64,000 nucleotides of DNA. Origin: Novipirellula aureliae (GTDB taxonomy: Bacteria; Planctomycetota; Planctomycetia; Pirellulales; Pirellulaceae). Both the position numbers and the translations under genes were made by a program. Shown piece by piece: positions 13,244-60,299 of this stretch. Numbering within the stretch: position 1 is the stretch's first letter; every line of letters starts with the position of its first letter. The notes under the pieces are model-generated. The model ran no database searches and had not been told where the DNA came from. It was given only the letters and a program-made list of their open reading frames with translations. The DNA lies in contig NZ_SJPY01000002.1 of NCBI RefSeq assembly GCF_007860185.1, positions 62,001 through 126,000 on the forward strand. The letters are read 5' to 3'.

Positions 13244-13615
13244 CACGAATTCCTCGATCAAGAAAGGAATCGACGGTCATGCTCTCACCAAGCATGATGT
13301 GAAAAACATAGGGGACTGTTGGCTCGTCGAATCAGCCGAATAAACAGACAAGAAATAAGCGTGGTCACTTGGAATGGATTAACCACGACGACTGACGAGA
13401 AAGCGAATAACCGAGCCAAACTGCTACTCGCCAACCGCAAGCCAATTGTAGGCACTAGGAGCCCTTAAGAAAAGTGTTTTTCCACTAAAAACCAACAAGG
13501 GAACTTGAGACGCCCTAGAGAAGCAGTCTCTTGAAGATCTGGCTTGACCGTAGTGGATCTTGTGAAAGATCCCCATGCGGTTGGATTTTGTGAAAGATCC
13601 CCCACGATCGACGAA
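13244..13615. repeat. intergenic region with two GATC-hairpin repeats
   Basis: This 370-base gap between gltX and the acyl-CoA ligase gene has no gene that I can see; the ligase promoter should lie here. GTAGTGGATCTTGTGAAAGATCC at 13550-13572 and GGATTTTGTGAAAGATCC at 13583-13600 are relatives, in opposite orientation, of the 18-base hairpin that is tandemly repeated at 22835-23329. An unpaired TTGAAGATCTGG fragment of the same unit lies at 13531. Confidence 0.6.
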
Positions 13616-21293: not shown

Positions 21294-22712
21294 CTATTCT
21301 TCGAGTTTCTCGTCCAAGATTGCACTGAGTTCTTTTACCACGTCAGCGTTCCCAGCGGCGATGTTCTCCGTTTCACCGCTATCGATTTGGTGGTCGTACA
21401 GTTCGTTTGCCGTAACTCTCTTCCCTTTTAAATGCCGAATCAAACGATACTTCTCAGTACGAATGGTGTCGCGCGAGCCACCATAAGAGATCGCCGACTT
21501 GCCATCAACACTGGGGTCATCGAGCATCGGCAGAAGCGATTCACCGTCGAGGCTGGAGGGTTTTGGCAGCTCACACAAATCGCATAGCGTCGGGAACAAA
21601 TCGATCGATTCAACAATCGCTTTGCTCTGAACACCAGCCTGTTTGACCTGGGGGGCGCAGACAATAAGTGGTGATCGAAGCGATTCTTCGAATAGAGTGT
21701 GTTTTCCCCAAACCGCGTGTTCACCCAAGTGCCAACCGTGGTCGCCCCACAAGACGATAATCGTATCATCGGCCAAGCCGTTCTCTTTGAGTCGATCAAC
21801 AATCCGGCCAACGCAAGCGTCGGCATACGTAACACAGGAGGCGTAGTGTTTTCGTACTTCGTCGGCAAATTCGCTATCCTGACGTGGGTCTTTCCCCCAC
21901 CCATTGTATCTCAAAAATTCACCCGATCCGTGCCAAGTTGAAAGGCCGAGCGGTTTTTCTTTGTGAGCAATCGTTGGCAATTCTGCGTCTAGGTACGGCT
22001 GCATGTAAGTCGCGGGTGAACCGAAGGGCAAATGAGGTCGAATGATCCCAACGGCAAGTAAAAAGGGCTCACCCGTCTTTGCCAATTGGTCGAGTTCTTC
22101 GAGTGCAGCATTGGTCGTCAAACCATCAGGATAGGCAGTATCGGGACCATCGAACGATTCAAAGACGTCCAGTTGCTTTTCGCTGCGAATTTGGCCGTTG
22201 GCTAGTCCGTGCATCGCTCCTTCCGGATGCCGCCAAGGACCAGTGGGCATCGAATGGCGGTCCCAGGCACCGGGCATTTCAATCGAATCGGGATCGTTCC
22301 AATCCTTTCCATACCGTCCGCCGGGGTGATGCGAAACTTTTCCGATCGAGACGGTTGTGTAGCCTGCCTTGCGGAAGACTTCCGGAAACGATGGTGTGGC
22401 CTTCGCCATCTCTTTGCTCCGCGCCACCAATGCTTGGTTACCCCGCGAAGCCGACGTTCGTCCATACCGTCCCGTCAACATTGCGTAGCGAGACGCGCCA
22501 CATGTTGGTGCTTGCACATAGTGCCTCGAAAATGCACGACCGGAACTGGCAAGCGCATCGATATTGGGCGATTCGATATATTCAGCTCCAAACGATTTCA
22601 ATTCGGGGCGCAAATCATCAATACATAGCAACAGCACATTGGGCGATTTGGCCGATAGCATTGGCGAAAAGCACAGGTAGCAAAGCAGAATCGGAGTGAT
22701 TTTTTTTAACAT
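21294..22712 (-). CDS. exported sulfatase (iduronate-2-sulfatase-like)
   Basis: A signal peptide MLKKITPILLCYLCFSPMLS is followed by PNVLLLCIDDLRPEL, whose Asp32-Asp33 are metal ligands. Cys71 in CGASRYAMLTGRYG is the CxAxR site converted to formylglycine. GKVSHHPGG, WGDHGWHLGEHAVWGKHTL and the C-terminal domain complete a type I sulfatase of 472 residues. The family hydrolyses sulfate esters, typically of algal polysaccharides in marine planctomycetes; it probably acts in the periplasm. The start is the ATG at 22712-22710. The frame stays open for another 217 codons through the 33-bp repeat array, but this has no start logic and would bury the signal peptide. Confidence 0.9.
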   Translation of the reverse strand: MLKKITPILLCYLCFSPMLSAKSPNVLLLCIDDLRPELKSFGAEYIESPNIDALASSGRAFSRHYVQAPTCGASRYAMLTGRYGRTSASRGNQALVARSKEMAKATPSFPEVFRKAGYTTVSIGKVSHHPGGRYGKDWNDPDSIEMPGAWDRHSMPTGPWRHPEGAMHGLANGQIRSEKQLDVFESFDGPDTAYPDGLTTNAALEELDQLAKTGEPFLLAVGIIRPHLPFGSPATYMQPYLDAELPTIAHKEKPLGLSTWHGSGEFLRYNGWGKDPRQDSEFADEVRKHYASCVTYADACVGRIVDRLKENGLADDTIIVLWGDHGWHLGEHAVWGKHTLFEESLRSPLIVCAPQVKQAGVQSKAIVESIDLFPTLCDLCELPKPSSLDGESLLPMLDDPSVDGKSAISYGGSRDTIRTEKYRLIRHLKGKRVTANELYDHQIDSGETENIAAGNADVVKELSAILDEKLEE

Positions 22713-22834
22713 GGTGCGAAGCGGATAGGAGGGGAAAGGGGTTTGTTTGCAAGGGCTGCATTGTATCCCATATCTGCTCTCCGTAGTGGCGACATGGCCC
22801 AATGGGGGTATTGAATTTGTTAAAGTTTCTCTCG

Positions 22835-23329
22835 ATCTGGATCTTTGACAAGATCCACTACTTGAAGATCTGGATCTTTGACAAGATCCACTACTTGAAG
22901 ATCTGGATTTTTGACAAGATCCACTACCTGAAGACCTGGATCTTTGACAAGATCCACTACTTGAAGATCTGGATCTTTGACAAGATCCACTACTTGAAGA
23001 CCTGGATCTTTGACAAGATCCACTACCTGAAGATCTGGATCTTTGACAAGATCCACTACTTGAAGACCTGGATCTTTGACAAGATCCACTACTTGAAGAT
23101 CTGGATCTTTGACAAGATCCACTACTTGAAGATCTGGATCTTTGACAAGATCCACTACCTGAAGATCTGGATCTTTGACAAGATCCACTACTTGAAGATC
23201 GGGGTCTTTGACAAGATCCACTACTTGAAGACCTGGATCTTTGACAAGATCCACTACCTGAAGATCTGGATCTTTGACAAGATCCACTACTTGAAGACCT
23301 GGATCTTTGACAAGATCCACTACTTGAAG
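22835..23329. repeat. tandem array, fifteen 33-bp GATC-rich hairpin units
   Basis: Fifteen contiguous 33-bp units run without spacers. Each contains the 18-base inverted repeat GGATCTTTGACAAGATCC (7-bp arms, TGAC loop) and a 15-base linker with ACTACTTGAAGATCT or ACTACCTGAAGACCT. Units differ at a few positions, mainly ATCTGG or ACCTGG at the unit start. By my count there are about 38 GATC sites in 495 bases. Because 33 is a multiple of three, several frames stay open on both strands (for example WIFDKIHYLK on plus), but no gene features support translation. The array lies between the divergent sulfatase gene and the decarboxylase gene. Confidence 0.95.
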
Positions 23330-23436
23330 CAGGTAAGGAATTTTCTGCCGCGTTCCATAACAACAGGCAATGACCAAGGCGATACCGGCATATAATAAAC
23401 GCGTACGCCTCATCTTCTCTTTCCCAAGGTGCTCCG

Positions 23437-25134
23437 ATGAATCATTCACTCAACGCTCGCGGCGAAACAACAAAACCGACGCGTCGTGCGACCGCCAATG
23501 TTACGATAGCCGACTACTTGATCCAGCGGCTTCGCGACTATGGGGTTCATGATCTATTTGGAATCCCCGGCGACTATGTGCTGTCATTCTATAGCGAATT
23601 GGAAAACAGCCCGATCAATGTGATTGGGTGCACGCGTGAAGACTGTGCGGGGTTTGCCGCCGACGCGTACGCTCGCCTAAACGGGATGGGAGCCCTTTGC
23701 GTCACGTACTGCGTCGGTGGGATGAGTGTCTGCAACTCGGTCGCAGGCGCGTTCGCTGAAAAATCGCCTGTCGTCGTGATCTCGGGTGCGCCTGGACTCG
23801 ACGAGCGCCATCGCGGAGTTCTGCTGCACCACATGGTCCGCGACTTTCGCACGCAAGCCGATGTGTTCGAAAAGTTTACGATTGCCTCCACCGAGTTGAC
23901 CGATCCGATGACGGCGTTCTCGGAGATCGACCGCGTCCTCGACGCATGCGACCACTACAAACGACCGGTCTATATCGAATTGCCTCGAGACATGGTTCAT
24001 GTCATCCCTCCGGTCGCGCACGGGTTTCGCGGCACGGTTCAAAACTCAGACGCGGATGCGACGAGCGAAGCAGTCTCGGATGCGATCGATCGGTTAAAGC
24101 ATGCAAAACGTCCGGTTATTCTAGCGGGCGTCGAAACCCACCGGTTCCGTCTTCAAGATGAACTTTTACAATTTGCCGAGTCAGCGTCGATCCCGATCGC
24201 GACGACCATGCTTGGAAAAAGCGTTGTCAGTGAAAAACATCCGTTATTTATCGGGCTCTACGAAGGAGCGATTGGCGATGCGAATGTCACTCAGATTGTC
24301 GAGCAAAGTGATTGGTTGCTACTTTTGGGAGCCTTCCTAAGCGACATTAACCTAGGCATTTACACGGCAAAACTGGACCCGAGCCGCTGTGTCTACGCAA
24401 CAAGTGAATCGCTTCGTGTCTCTCATCACCACTACCACGATGTTGAACTCAAGCAGTTCTTGTCGGGTTTGATCGAAGCATCGAAAGACTTGCCGCCGCG
24501 GCCTATGCCAAAGACCCAAACGCGTAACAAGAAGAAAGCGAAAACGGGAAGAGACAATACCCAGCTGCAAACCAGTTGGATGGTTGAACAGTTAAACGAG
24601 CGGCTCGATCCGGATACAATCGTGATCGCCGACGTTGGTGATTCATTGTTCGCAGCAACCGAATTGACGATCCACGAGCGGACGGAGTTTCTTAGCCCCG
24701 CCTACTACACGTCGATGGGATTTAGTATTCCCGCGGCACTCGGGGCAGCCACCGCACGGCCCGACCATCGCATCGTTGTACTCGTCGGCGACGGTGCCTT
24801 TCAAATGACAGGCCAGGAACTCAGTACACTGGTTTACCACAACCACAACCCCGTGATTATCTTGCTAGACAATCACGGCTATGGAACCGAGCGATACCTA
24901 CATGCCGGTGAATGGAAGTACAACGAGGTTGCCAAATGGAACTACACCGAACTCATGAAAGTCTACGGACGAGGTGAAGCCTACAAGGTCGAAACCAAGG
25001 ATTCATTCCTGGAAACGCTCGACCGTGTCTGGAACTCACCGGATCATCCGCACTTGATTCACGCCGTCTTGGAAGAAAATGACGCCAGCGACACGTTGAA
25101 GAAGTTGGCCGAACGGATGAAAGAGAAAGTTTGA
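23437..25134 (+). CDS. thiamine-diphosphate 2-keto acid decarboxylase (pyruvate/indolepyruvate decarboxylase type)
   Basis: The 565-residue enzyme has the three domains of ThDP decarboxylases. In the PYR domain, Glu68 in CTREDCAGFAADAYAR is the cofactor-activating Glu, and the paired His131-His132 in VLLHHMVRDF is the HH motif typical of pyruvate and indolepyruvate decarboxylases and absent from acetolactate synthase. The PP domain has VGDGAFQMTGQEL and LLDNHGYGTER for Mg-ThDP. It should release CO2 from a 2-keto acid to give an aldehyde; the exact substrate is unclear. AAGGTG lies before the ATG. The repeat array ends about 107 bases upstream, so the promoter must lie within or beside it. 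Confidence 0.85.
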   Translation: MNHSLNARGETTKPTRRATANVTIADYLIQRLRDYGVHDLFGIPGDYVLSFYSELENSPINVIGCTREDCAGFAADAYARLNGMGALCVTYCVGGMSVCNSVAGAFAEKSPVVVISGAPGLDERHRGVLLHHMVRDFRTQADVFEKFTIASTELTDPMTAFSEIDRVLDACDHYKRPVYIELPRDMVHVIPPVAHGFRGTVQNSDADATSEAVSDAIDRLKHAKRPVILAGVETHRFRLQDELLQFAESASIPIATTMLGKSVVSEKHPLFIGLYEGAIGDANVTQIVEQSDWLLLLGAFLSDINLGIYTAKLDPSRCVYATSESLRVSHHHYHDVELKQFLSGLIEASKDLPPRPMPKTQTRNKKKAKTGRDNTQLQTSWMVEQLNERLDPDTIVIADVGDSLFAATELTIHERTEFLSPAYYTSMGFSIPAALGAATARPDHRIVVLVGDGAFQMTGQELSTLVYHNHNPVIILLDNHGYGTERYLHAGEWKYNEVAKWNYTELMKVYGRGEAYKVETKDSFLETLDRVWNSPDHPHLIHAVLEENDASDTLKKLAERMKEKV

Positions 25135-58244: not shown

Positions 58245-58268
58245 TCGACGCAGAGGGTTGGCGGTAGG

Positions 58269-58347
58269 GGATCTTGTAAATGATCCTCGTGTGCCAGGAT
58301 CTTGTAAATGATCCTCATGTGCCAGGATCTTTAACAAGATCCACTAC
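58269..58347. repeat. three GATC-hairpin repeats
   Basis: Two 28-base units starting GGATCTTGTAAATGATCC (58269-58296 and 58297-58324) are followed by GGATCTTTAACAAGATCC and ACTAC (58325-58347). The last differs from the unit at 22835-23329 by one base in the loop. It lies between the transglutaminase-like and ThiH-like genes. Confidence 0.85.
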
Positions 58348-58436: not shown

Positions 58437-60299
58437 ATGACAACCACCAATCAATCGGGACTTACTTCACTGAGTCAATTCACCCACTGGATTGAACAAA
58501 CCGATCACCATGCCACACACCGTTTGAACTTGATTGATCGAGTCAATGCGGCCTTGTCCGAAGACTCGCTCGCAACCCCTGAAGAACGGATTTCCATCGC
58601 CAGCCAACTGGAACGGTGGCGGTATCAATTGCTCAACGAAACTCGAGTGAATCGAGATAATAGCGACACGAATGAAAGTCAGGGCGCTAAGTTGTTAGCA
58701 GAGATGGATTACTGCTTCCAGCGACTTCGTAGTTCGGATCCAACAAACGTTGCGCTACGTTCACCACGCAGTCCGCATCTCGCCATTCGCGACGACGATG
58801 TGGAGCGTCAGGCAGTCGAGAGCTTGCAATGTCCGTCTCGGAGAGACGGACCTACGGCCATTCGCAACGACGATGTGGAGCGTCAGGCAGTCGAGAGCTT
58901 GCAATGTCCGTCTCGGAGAGACGGACCTACGGTCATTCGCGACGACGATGTGAATAGTCAGGCAGTCGAGAGCTTGCAATGTCCGTCTCGGAGAGACGGA
59001 CCTACGGCCATTCGCAACGACGATGTGGAGCGTCAGGCAGTCGAGAGCTTGCAATGTCCGTCTCGGAGAGACGGACCTACGGCCATTCGCAACGACGATG
59101 TGAATAGTCAGGCAGTCGAGAGCTTGCAATGTCCGTCTCGGAGAGACGGACCTACGGTCATTCGCGACGACGATGTGAATAGTCAGGCAGTCGAGAGCTT
59201 GCAATGTCCGTCTCGGAGAGACGGGCCTACGGTCATTCGCGACGACGATGTGGAGCGTCAGGCAGTCGAGAGAGCTCGTACTTGGATCGACCGTTCCTTT
59301 CCCCTTGCGGAACTCGAAGCCTCGGCAAAACGGTTAACGGATCAACGATTCATGACTTGCGAAGCCGCGGACAATCGAGCCAAGCGGCGAATGGTCTTGT
59401 ATGCTCCAATCTACGTGTCGAGTGAGTGCGTTAACCACTGTACGTATTGTGGCTTCCGATATCCGATGCAGATAAATCGTACCCATTTACATCTTGATCA
59501 AGTTCTCGACCAGTCGCAAATTTTGCGGAAACGCGGGTTTCAACATCAATTGATCGTGGCCGGCGATTACCCCAGCCGGACATCGACGGCATACTTTTGT
59601 GAGTTGATCGAAGCCCTTGAAGGGCAGGGCTTAGAGATTGGAATTGAAATTGCGGCTCAGTCGACCGAGTCCTACGCCGCCATGGTATCCGCCGGCGCAA
59701 CGGGCGTGACGTTGTATCAAGAAACGTACGATGAATCCGTCTACGAATCGGTGCATATCCGCGGGCCAAAGTCGTCCTTCGCATGGCGACTTGAGGCACC
59801 CGAGCGGGCGGCGGAAGCAGGTTTTAGCCGCGTCGGTTTGGGGATCCTGCTTGGCCTTGCCGATCCGGCAAAAGATTTCCTATCGCTCGTCCGGCACGGG
59901 TTTTACTTGCAGCATCGTTTTCCCAATCTGCAATTGGCGTTTAGTTTCCCACGTATCCACGAAGCGCCGAATGATTTCGAAATCCCACACGAGATTTCGG
60001 ACGATGATCTGGTCCGCTTTTACTGCGTCACTCGCATGCTGTTCCCGCAGTCCCATCTGGTTTTGTCGACACGCGAAGCGGCCGAACTACGAGCACGTTT
60101 AGCACATTTGTGCATCACCCAAATGAGCGCAGGAAGCTCGACGTCACCCGGTGGATACACGGAGTCGAAAGGGGACAAGACAAACGAGACGCAGCCCCGT
60201 TGTATGGGTGAACAGTTCCCGGTGACAGACGAACGGAGTGTCGAAGAAGTCACCGATTGGCTCGAGCAAGACGGATTCGAAGTTCGCTGGTCGTTCTAG
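58437..60299 (+). CDS. ThiH-like radical SAM protein with in-frame repeat insert
   Basis: The C-terminal part (residues about 280-600) is a ThiH/2-iminoacetate synthase-like radical SAM domain. Cys331, Cys335 and Cys338 in SSECVNHCTYCGFRY form the CxxxCxxC cluster site, followed by GFQHQLIVAGDYPS, IAAQSTESYAAMVSAGATGVTLYQETYD and VGLGILLGLADP. ThiH cleaves tyrosine for thiazole synthesis, while HydG-like relatives have an extra C-terminal cluster that I do not see. At 620 residues it is far longer than ThiH (about 377). Residues 116-278 consist of a 25-residue repeat. No other thi gene is nearby. Confidence 0.75.
   Translation: MTTTNQSGLTSLSQFTHWIEQTDHHATHRLNLIDRVNAALSEDSLATPEERISIASQLERWRYQLLNETRVNRDNSDTNESQGAKLLAEMDYCFQRLRSSDPTNVALRSPRSPHLAIRDDDVERQAVESLQCPSRRDGPTAIRNDDVERQAVESLQCPSRRDGPTVIRDDDVNSQAVESLQCPSRRDGPTAIRNDDVERQAVESLQCPSRRDGPTAIRNDDVNSQAVESLQCPSRRDGPTVIRDDDVNSQAVESLQCPSRRDGPTVIRDDDVERQAVERARTWIDRSFPLAELEASAKRLTDQRFMTCEAADNRAKRRMVLYAPIYVSSECVNHCTYCGFRYPMQINRTHLHLDQVLDQSQILRKRGFQHQLIVAGDYPSRTSTAYFCELIEALEGQGLEIGIEIAAQSTESYAAMVSAGATGVTLYQETYDESVYESVHIRGPKSSFAWRLEAPERAAEAGFSRVGLGILLGLADPAKDFLSLVRHGFYLQHRFPNLQLAFSFPRIHEAPNDFEIPHEISDDDLVRFYCVTRMLFPQSHLVLSTREAAELRARLAHLCITQMSAGSSTSPGGYTESKGDKTNETQPRCMGEQFPVTDERSVEEVTDWLEQDGFEVRWSF
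58782..59270 (+). repeat. six and a half in-frame 75-bp hairpin repeats
   Basis: Six full 75-bp units start at 58782, 58857, 58932, 59007, 59082 and 59157, with a partial seventh at 59232. Each encodes AIR(N/D)DDV(ER/NS)QAVESLQCPSRRDGP and contains the perfect inverted repeat GTCCGTCTC/GAGACGGAC. Copies are almost identical and differ mainly at two linked sites (N or D; ER or NS) that combine freely, which suggests recombination between units. The multiple-of-three length keeps the reading frame of the ThiH-like gene. Confidence 0.95.

Follow-up and report, generated by a model that had tools for sequence, protein, structure and literature searches.

A GATC-rich tandem array between divergent sulfatase and decarboxylase genes of Novipirellula aureliae as a probable, locally amplified GTAG-tagged REP

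The GTAG-tagged REPs are among the closest described relatives of the repeat reported here. They form a superfamily of 24 families in which GTAG abuts a short palindrome with a small loop, the elements are high in copy number and mostly intergenic, and the dimer privileged in most families is the inverted 'HH' pair (Di Nocera et al., 2013, PMC3733652). GTAG REPs have already been reported in Planctomycetes, where Rhodopirellula baltica hosts different families, and transposase genes and flanking repeats have been reported in the same species (PMC3733652). A further described organization is the REPIN, in which two inverted REPs constitute the repeated unit, tandem clusters take in flanking sequence, and clusters are found beside RAYT genes (Bertels and Rainey, 2011, PMC3116915). 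In the REPtrons, the gene for a TnpAREP/RAYT protein of ~190 aa, which carries HuH (DHxH) and Y..NP motifs, is flanked on both sides by its own REP (PMC6006769, PMC8266576).

The window analyzed here is a 64,000-nucleotide stretch of Novipirellula aureliae (contig NZ_SJPY01000002.1, positions 62,001 to 126,000), and the array lies at 22834..23329 on its minus strand, as judged from Tandem Repeats Finder, the GATC count, folding and the tags. Tandem Repeats Finder resolves 15.0 head-to-tail copies with a period of 33 bp, 95% matches and no indels, which bears out the uninterrupted array of fifteen 33-bp units described in an earlier note on this DNA. The units are contiguous and near-identical, without unique spacers, and the statement of that note that the array is not a CRISPR is thus upheld. 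On the minus strand, each unit runs from a spacer through GTAG to the hairpin TGGATCTT-GTCA-AAGATCCA, whose 8-bp stem and 4-nt loop fall within the range (stem of 5-13 bp, short loop) that defines a GTAG-tagged REP. GTAG stands directly 5' of the hairpin in all 15 units. The exact 18-mer GGATCTTTGACAAGATCC is present in 13 of them and the units at 22900 and 23197 deviate, so that the claim of one such hairpin in every unit holds for the 13 only. Likewise, the supposed alternation of ATCTGG and ACCTGG starts is not strict, as ten of the units start with GATC and five with GACC. Folded as single-stranded DNA, the unit reaches -6.7 kcal/mol (z -5.9).

The array occupies 496 of the 724 bp between the start codons of two genes which, as noted earlier, are divergent. 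The sulfatase gene (21294..22712, minus strand; PF00884) starts at 22712, 121 bp from the array, and the TPP-dependent 2-oxoacid decarboxylase gene (23437..25134, plus strand) starts at 23437, 107 bp from it. The decarboxylase has three TPP-enzyme domains, and its top NCBIfam match, an indolepyruvate/phenylpyruvate decarboxylase, scores under the cut-off of that model. With a period divisible by three, the array has several open frames (21294-23363 and 22820-23449 on the minus strand, 22802-23395 on the plus strand), and a gene caller could extend the sulfatase gene into it and predict a domain of 11-residue repeats.

The hairpin is not confined to this locus. The genome search that had been proposed as a check returned 486 matches to GGATCTTNGACAAGATCC with at most two mismatches in the 7.27-Mb genome and none for the reversed control, and the GTAG tag together with the hairpin gave 383 matches with at most one mismatch. 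A recurrent frame among these copies is GTAGT-GGATCTTGTTAAAGATCC, about ten bases, and GGATCTTTAACAAGATCC-ACTAC, that is, inverted hairpins with GTAG at each outer end. In 57 stretches of the same genome (863 kb), many of which were selected for holding a match, 62 clusters were counted, 51 of them from such selected stretches; a tag-outward, REPIN-like inverted pair occurs in 49 of the 62, while 36 consist of one such pair alone and nine of a lone REP. The inverted pair is hence the commonest form of a cluster, rather than the commonest arrangement of neighbors, and its spacing is usually 27-29 bp. The 11 stretches picked regardless of matches (209 kb) hold seven REPs in four clusters, with GTAG on all seven. 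Within the window, a REP of the same family is seen at 13550..13600, with GTAG at 13550 and a second, imperfect hairpin of ambiguous orientation 28 bp on, and a third cluster of the family, at 58264..58347, has two hairpins that face one way and a third that faces the other, 28 bp apart; as single-stranded DNA this cluster folds into one long hairpin (-19.7 kcal/mol, z -7.1). The array hairpin is a GTAG-tagged REP: high-copy, dispersed and mainly intergenic.

The dispersed copies also bear on the simplest account of the array, that of a plain minisatellite with no tie to a mobile element. Such an account would suit a clean head-to-tail repeat with a 33-bp period, and yet it is barely credible, as it is already contradicted by the dispersed tagged copies: the unit hairpin recurs elsewhere with its GTAG tag, either alone or as part of an inverted pair, and the same hairpin stands on both sides of a RAYT-like gene. 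Since the REP is scattered by the hundreds and a transposase-like gene is flanked by the same hairpin, the array is best seen as a familiar type of selfish repeat, one copy of which has most likely expanded locally, and not as a switch built for the purpose. Among the four options offered by the earlier note, the 'expanding selfish repeat' appears to be the best fit, given the hundreds of GTAG-tagged copies and the REP-flanked RAYT-like gene.

A different possibility is that GATC, when methylated within the two divergent promoters, alters the expression of the sulfatase and the decarboxylase. The density is real: 38 GATC sites lie in the 496 bp of the array. The count given earlier was therefore correct, and the chance expectation of about two agrees with base composition (~1.9 per 496 bp, or 248.7 in 64 kb) and not with the rate of the window itself (501 sites in 64 kb, ~3.9 per 496 bp); as the trinucleotide-based expectation is 548, GATC is not rare in this window. 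The genome also has one D12-class adenine methyltransferase, as found by a D12-class search, which scores 87.7 bits on the dam model TIGR00571 (cut-off 114.85), and GATC may be methylated in this genome. Nevertheless, the GATC of the hairpin is part of a REP stem that recurs away from promoters. According to a rough codon-based gene caller, the 62 clusters lie between co-directional genes in 36 cases, between convergent genes in 10 and between divergent genes in 10, with five at stretch edges and one apparently intragenic, so that 36 and 10 of the 56 classified clusters are co-directional and convergent, respectively. Neighboring gene pairs in the same stretches are 302 co-directional to 82 convergent to 62 divergent; the divergent class makes up 10 of 56 classified clusters and 62 of 446 gene pairs, which gives no clear indication that REP clusters favor divergent promoters.

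The comparison with sister elements points in the same direction. The stems beside sister RAYT-like genes include, among others, GGACGTG, GGACTTC, GGAATTC, GGATCTCC, GGATCTG, CCGAATTC and CCGAACTG, and of the 15 distinct tagged stems that adjoin the RAYT-like genes of relatives, 10 have no GATC. Because the tagged hairpins of relatives have other stems, many of them without GATC, the conserved part of these elements is not GATC; the tag is common to sister elements and GATC is not, which on sequence grounds makes GATC incidental. The methylation switch suggested earlier is left unsupported by these 10 GATC-free stems, as well as by the absence of the REP from 11 loci of decarboxylase relatives, two of them congeneric, and it is considered very improbable.

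These 11 loci (L228-L238) have no tagged REP at up to five substitutions, whereas the own locus has 15. The decarboxylase relatives of the two congeners are 76-77% identical to the N. aureliae enzyme, and no match to the sulfatase is present in the 1.5 kb upstream of either. When the in-frame sulfatase was compared with the 12 decarboxylase loci, it matched its own locus and, weakly, the far end of L234 (23% identity). Since the 11 loci have no REP and the congeners have no sulfatase match upstream, the array, judged by these comparisons, is not an ancient component of the decarboxylase promoter. In the two congeners (L229 in G001 and L228 in G002), the sequences upstream of the decarboxylase relative look alike by eye, and, as they lack a match to the sulfatase, the REP array would lie at or near a break in synteny.

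The same results weigh against a cis-acting structure, in RNA or DNA, that serves the host at this locus, be it an attenuator, a transcription barrier between the divergent genes or a site for gyrase or a nucleoid protein. A unit that folds as single-stranded DNA and an array that fills most of the space between the start codons are what such a function would call for, and roles in supercoiling, termination and mRNA stability have been hypothesized for REPs (PMC3733652). Against it, Rfam has no matches in 22500-23700, the relatives of the decarboxylase have no adjacent REP, and the same element occurs at dozens of unrelated sites. Hence a dedicated local function is improbable, although less so than the methylation switch, and an effect of the array on expression is possible as a by-product. 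The structured 5' leader proposed in the earlier note likewise finds no support, given the Rfam result and clusters without a clear preference for divergent promoters.

Preference for the selfish-repeat reading raises the matter of what may move the element. A RAYT-like gene was seen directly between REPs in the loci of two relatives, and a homolog was then located in the own genome (locus L212; G000:C5:420987-421565; 193 aa). This gene, hereafter the C5 gene, is flanked by REPs on both sides: its two 300-bp flanks hold three and two tagged perfect hairpins, respectively, all of them GGATCTTGTTAAAGATCC. Its protein contains the motifs DHFH and YIARNP, and D66-H67-x-H69 and Y128 with N132-P133 are invariant in eight aligned RAYT-like proteins; these residues would correspond to the HuH and Tyr motifs of the RAYT family, and a catalytic role is suggested by the motifs. 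The protein is named RAYT-like, and not an equivalog of NF047646 (REP-associated tyrosine transposase), since it scores 39.3 bits on that model, short of the cut-off of 80, and has no match in Pfam. When the RAYT-like alignment was searched as a profile against the PDB, nothing meaningful emerged, the one match being a chance hit to superoxide dismutase (E 0.91). Another set of candidates, the 13 Y1_Tnp (PF01797) matches of the genome, was set aside as the mover, for the array-type hairpin is absent from their 1.5-kb flanks; the nearest REPs to one of these loci (L011) are 2-4 kb off.

The C5 protein is 85-89% identical to proteins of two genomes of other genera and 52-55% identical to those of the two congeners, and because of this difference either inter-genus transfer or old paralogs are suggested. 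Other RAYT-like genes are present in the same genome. Those at L060 (3788-4453), L073 (7231-7926) and L079 (7099-7866) are adjoined at one end by tandem repeats of other sequences, which show up as repeated peptides in overlapping open frames, and these genes may have their own REP families. At L074, L075 and L076 a different RAYT-like gene is multicopy, the copies on contig C8 being ~96-100% identical and that on C7 58%. The RAYT family is usually described as low-copy, and this multicopy gene is unusual against that description.

The association between tagged hairpins and RAYT-like genes extends to relatives. Thirty-five distinct RAYT-like loci were counted after the exclusion of duplicates (L240, L247, L257), weak matches (L218-L223, L225) and matches without a locus; perfect stems of at least 7 bp, with 0-2 nt between tag and stem, were sought within 300 bp of the gene. 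A GTAG- or GTCG-tagged perfect hairpin occurs on some side of the gene in 19 of the 35 loci and on both sides in 15. With six altered tags, hairpins on both sides were found in 0 of the 35 and hairpins on any side in 0 to 6. Likewise, none of the 10 control loci has a tagged perfect hairpin; these were the loci of decarboxylase relatives (L228-L238) without L235, which has a short flank, the own locus L227 also being left out as it holds the array. Perfect tagged hairpins are absent from 16 of the 35 loci, including those of both congeners, and L224, with its imperfect GTAGTGGACGAGGC hairpins, was counted as a miss because perfect stems were required. At L213 (G015:C5) and L244 (G101:C4) the RAYT-like genes have mixed hairpins, GGATCTTGCTAAAGATCC and the opposite-facing GGACGTGGCTACACGTCC, both GTAG/GTCG-tagged.

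Across 199 genomes of the family, a RAYT-like gene is present in 11 of the 13 genomes with at least 20 tagged copies versus 40 of the 186 others (Fisher p ~7e-6, with genomes treated as independent of kinship). At the threshold used, no RAYT match was obtained in two REP-rich genomes, G087 (115 copies, 82% complete) and G220 (84 copies, 99% complete); a RAYT-like gene without any match to the REP of the array is present in 20 genomes. The exact tagged hairpin is spread over several genera: among the matches listed in a pattern scan of contigs are Neorhodopirellula pilleata, Rubripirellula obstinata, Roseiconus nitratireducens, Rhodopirellula sallentina, Rhodopirellula baltica and Stieleria tagensis, together with MAGs labelled Pirellula, Pirellulaceae, Planctomycetaceae and Planctomycetales. 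Of the 107 neighboring copies within 120 bp that were counted across 120 loci from named relatives, 86 form tag-outward pairs.

Several arrays bear on growth within a locus. The 57 own-genome stretches contain 11 arrays of at least three same-facing units, the present one included, with 3-16 units and periods of 28-47 bp; this count takes orientation into account, and evenly spaced hairpins regardless of orientation number 12. The spacers differ among the 11 arrays, and, because each has its own spacer, the arrays seem to arise locally, from a REP together with the adjoining sequence. At L037, 15 of the 16 same-facing units are missing the GTAG tag, from which it follows that amplification does not require the tag. 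The likely mechanism is slippage or unequal exchange.

At the left end of the present array lies a possible degenerate, opposite-facing REP (22808..22829, plus strand; core 22812-22829). Its core matches 13 of 18 positions without gaps, the tag being recognizable only with one gap, and it stands 27 bp from the first array hairpin, which is the REPIN spacing. On the plus strand outside REP clusters, 13 of 18 is reached at two of 63,319 window positions, and this is one of the two. Since a core match of this quality is rare in the window and the distance agrees with the usual inverted spacing of 27-29 bp, the array is probably a REPIN in which one arm has decayed and the other has been amplified.

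The proposed course of events would begin with the entry of a REPIN, two inverted GTAG-tagged hairpins ~28 bp apart, into the intergenic region of the sulfatase and decarboxylase genes. A tyrosine transposase of the RAYT-like type, for instance the C5 protein of the same genome, would have carried out the insertion; the putative substrate of the C5 protein in this model is the single-stranded GTAG-TGGATCTTG hairpin (GTAG-TGGATCTTGTCAAAGATCCA). One arm would then have decayed to leave the sequence at 22808-22829, while the other, with its local flank, would have been duplicated head to tail up to 15 copies, presumably through slippage or unequal exchange at the hairpins. Taken together, and as far as sequence comparison allows, the array is very probably a locally amplified REP of the GTAG superfamily, which would stem from a RAYT-inserted REPIN with one decayed arm.

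A second family appears to be present in the same window. The tandem array at 58782-59272 (75 bp x 6.5) contains a different GTAG-tagged hairpin, GTAG-GTCCGTCTC-TCC-GAGACGGAC; with two mismatches allowed, the genome has 29 matches to this hairpin and 0 to the control, and its stem variants keep their pairing (GTAGCTCCGTCTC...GAGACGGAG, GTAGATCCGTCTC...GAGACGGAT); it looks like another REP family.

A broader proposal can be made tentatively, and we hold it to be rather doubtful as a whole. The Pirellulaceae may harbor a RAYT lineage outside the published subclasses, in which the REP stem has repeatedly been replaced (GGATCTT, GGACGTG, GGACTTC, GGATCTCC, CCGAATTC and others) and GTAG has been kept, and whose REPs also multiply locally to as many as 16 same-facing units, even where the repeated unit has lost the tag; spread between loci by the RAYT and growth within a locus by replication slippage would then be separable on one element. 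Two points deserve to be retained: the RAYT-like lineage with its swapped stems, and the setting apart of dispersal from local amplification. Read in this manner, a GATC-rich array would become a readable event, the landing of a REP between two promoters followed by its multiplication in place. As sister transposase-like genes adjoin REPs of different stems and the same tag, the Pirellulaceae would offer a natural series for how a RAYT recognizes its REP, and arrays with different spacers would allow local growth to be told from transposition. GATC density or methylation at such sites does not necessarily imply regulation.

In comparison with the described REPtrons, the C5 protein resembles the TnpAREP/RAYT proteins in its HuH and Y..NP motifs and in its length, and its gene in having its own REP on either side (PMC6006769, PMC8266576). 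It differs from the RAYTs of REPtrons in a NF047646 score that is half the cut-off. The published W[QE] motif (PMC6006769) is altered as well: by eye, W is replaced by L or F in seven of the eight aligned RAYT-like proteins and Q is kept, FQ being listed for RAYT subclass 2.1 in the same source. YIARNP has no exact match among the subclass motifs listed there, subclasses 2.7 and 2.5 being the nearest by eye (PMC6006769).

The array and its dispersed kin resemble REPINs in that two inverted REPs seem to recur as a unit in this genome, that tandem clusters take in flanking sequence and that clusters occur beside RAYT-like genes (PMC3116915). Unlike REPINs, the array repeats one arm only, the other being at most a degenerate relic with a 13/18 match, as against the inverted pairs present in 49 of the 62 clusters. 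The closest likeness is with the GTAG-tagged superfamily, in the tag that abuts a short, small-loop palindrome, the high copy number and the mostly intergenic position, the stem of the array being likened to the 24 families by anatomy and not against their consensus sequences (PMC3733652). As with the 'HH' dimers privileged in most GTAG families, inverted pairs are common here too (PMC3733652).
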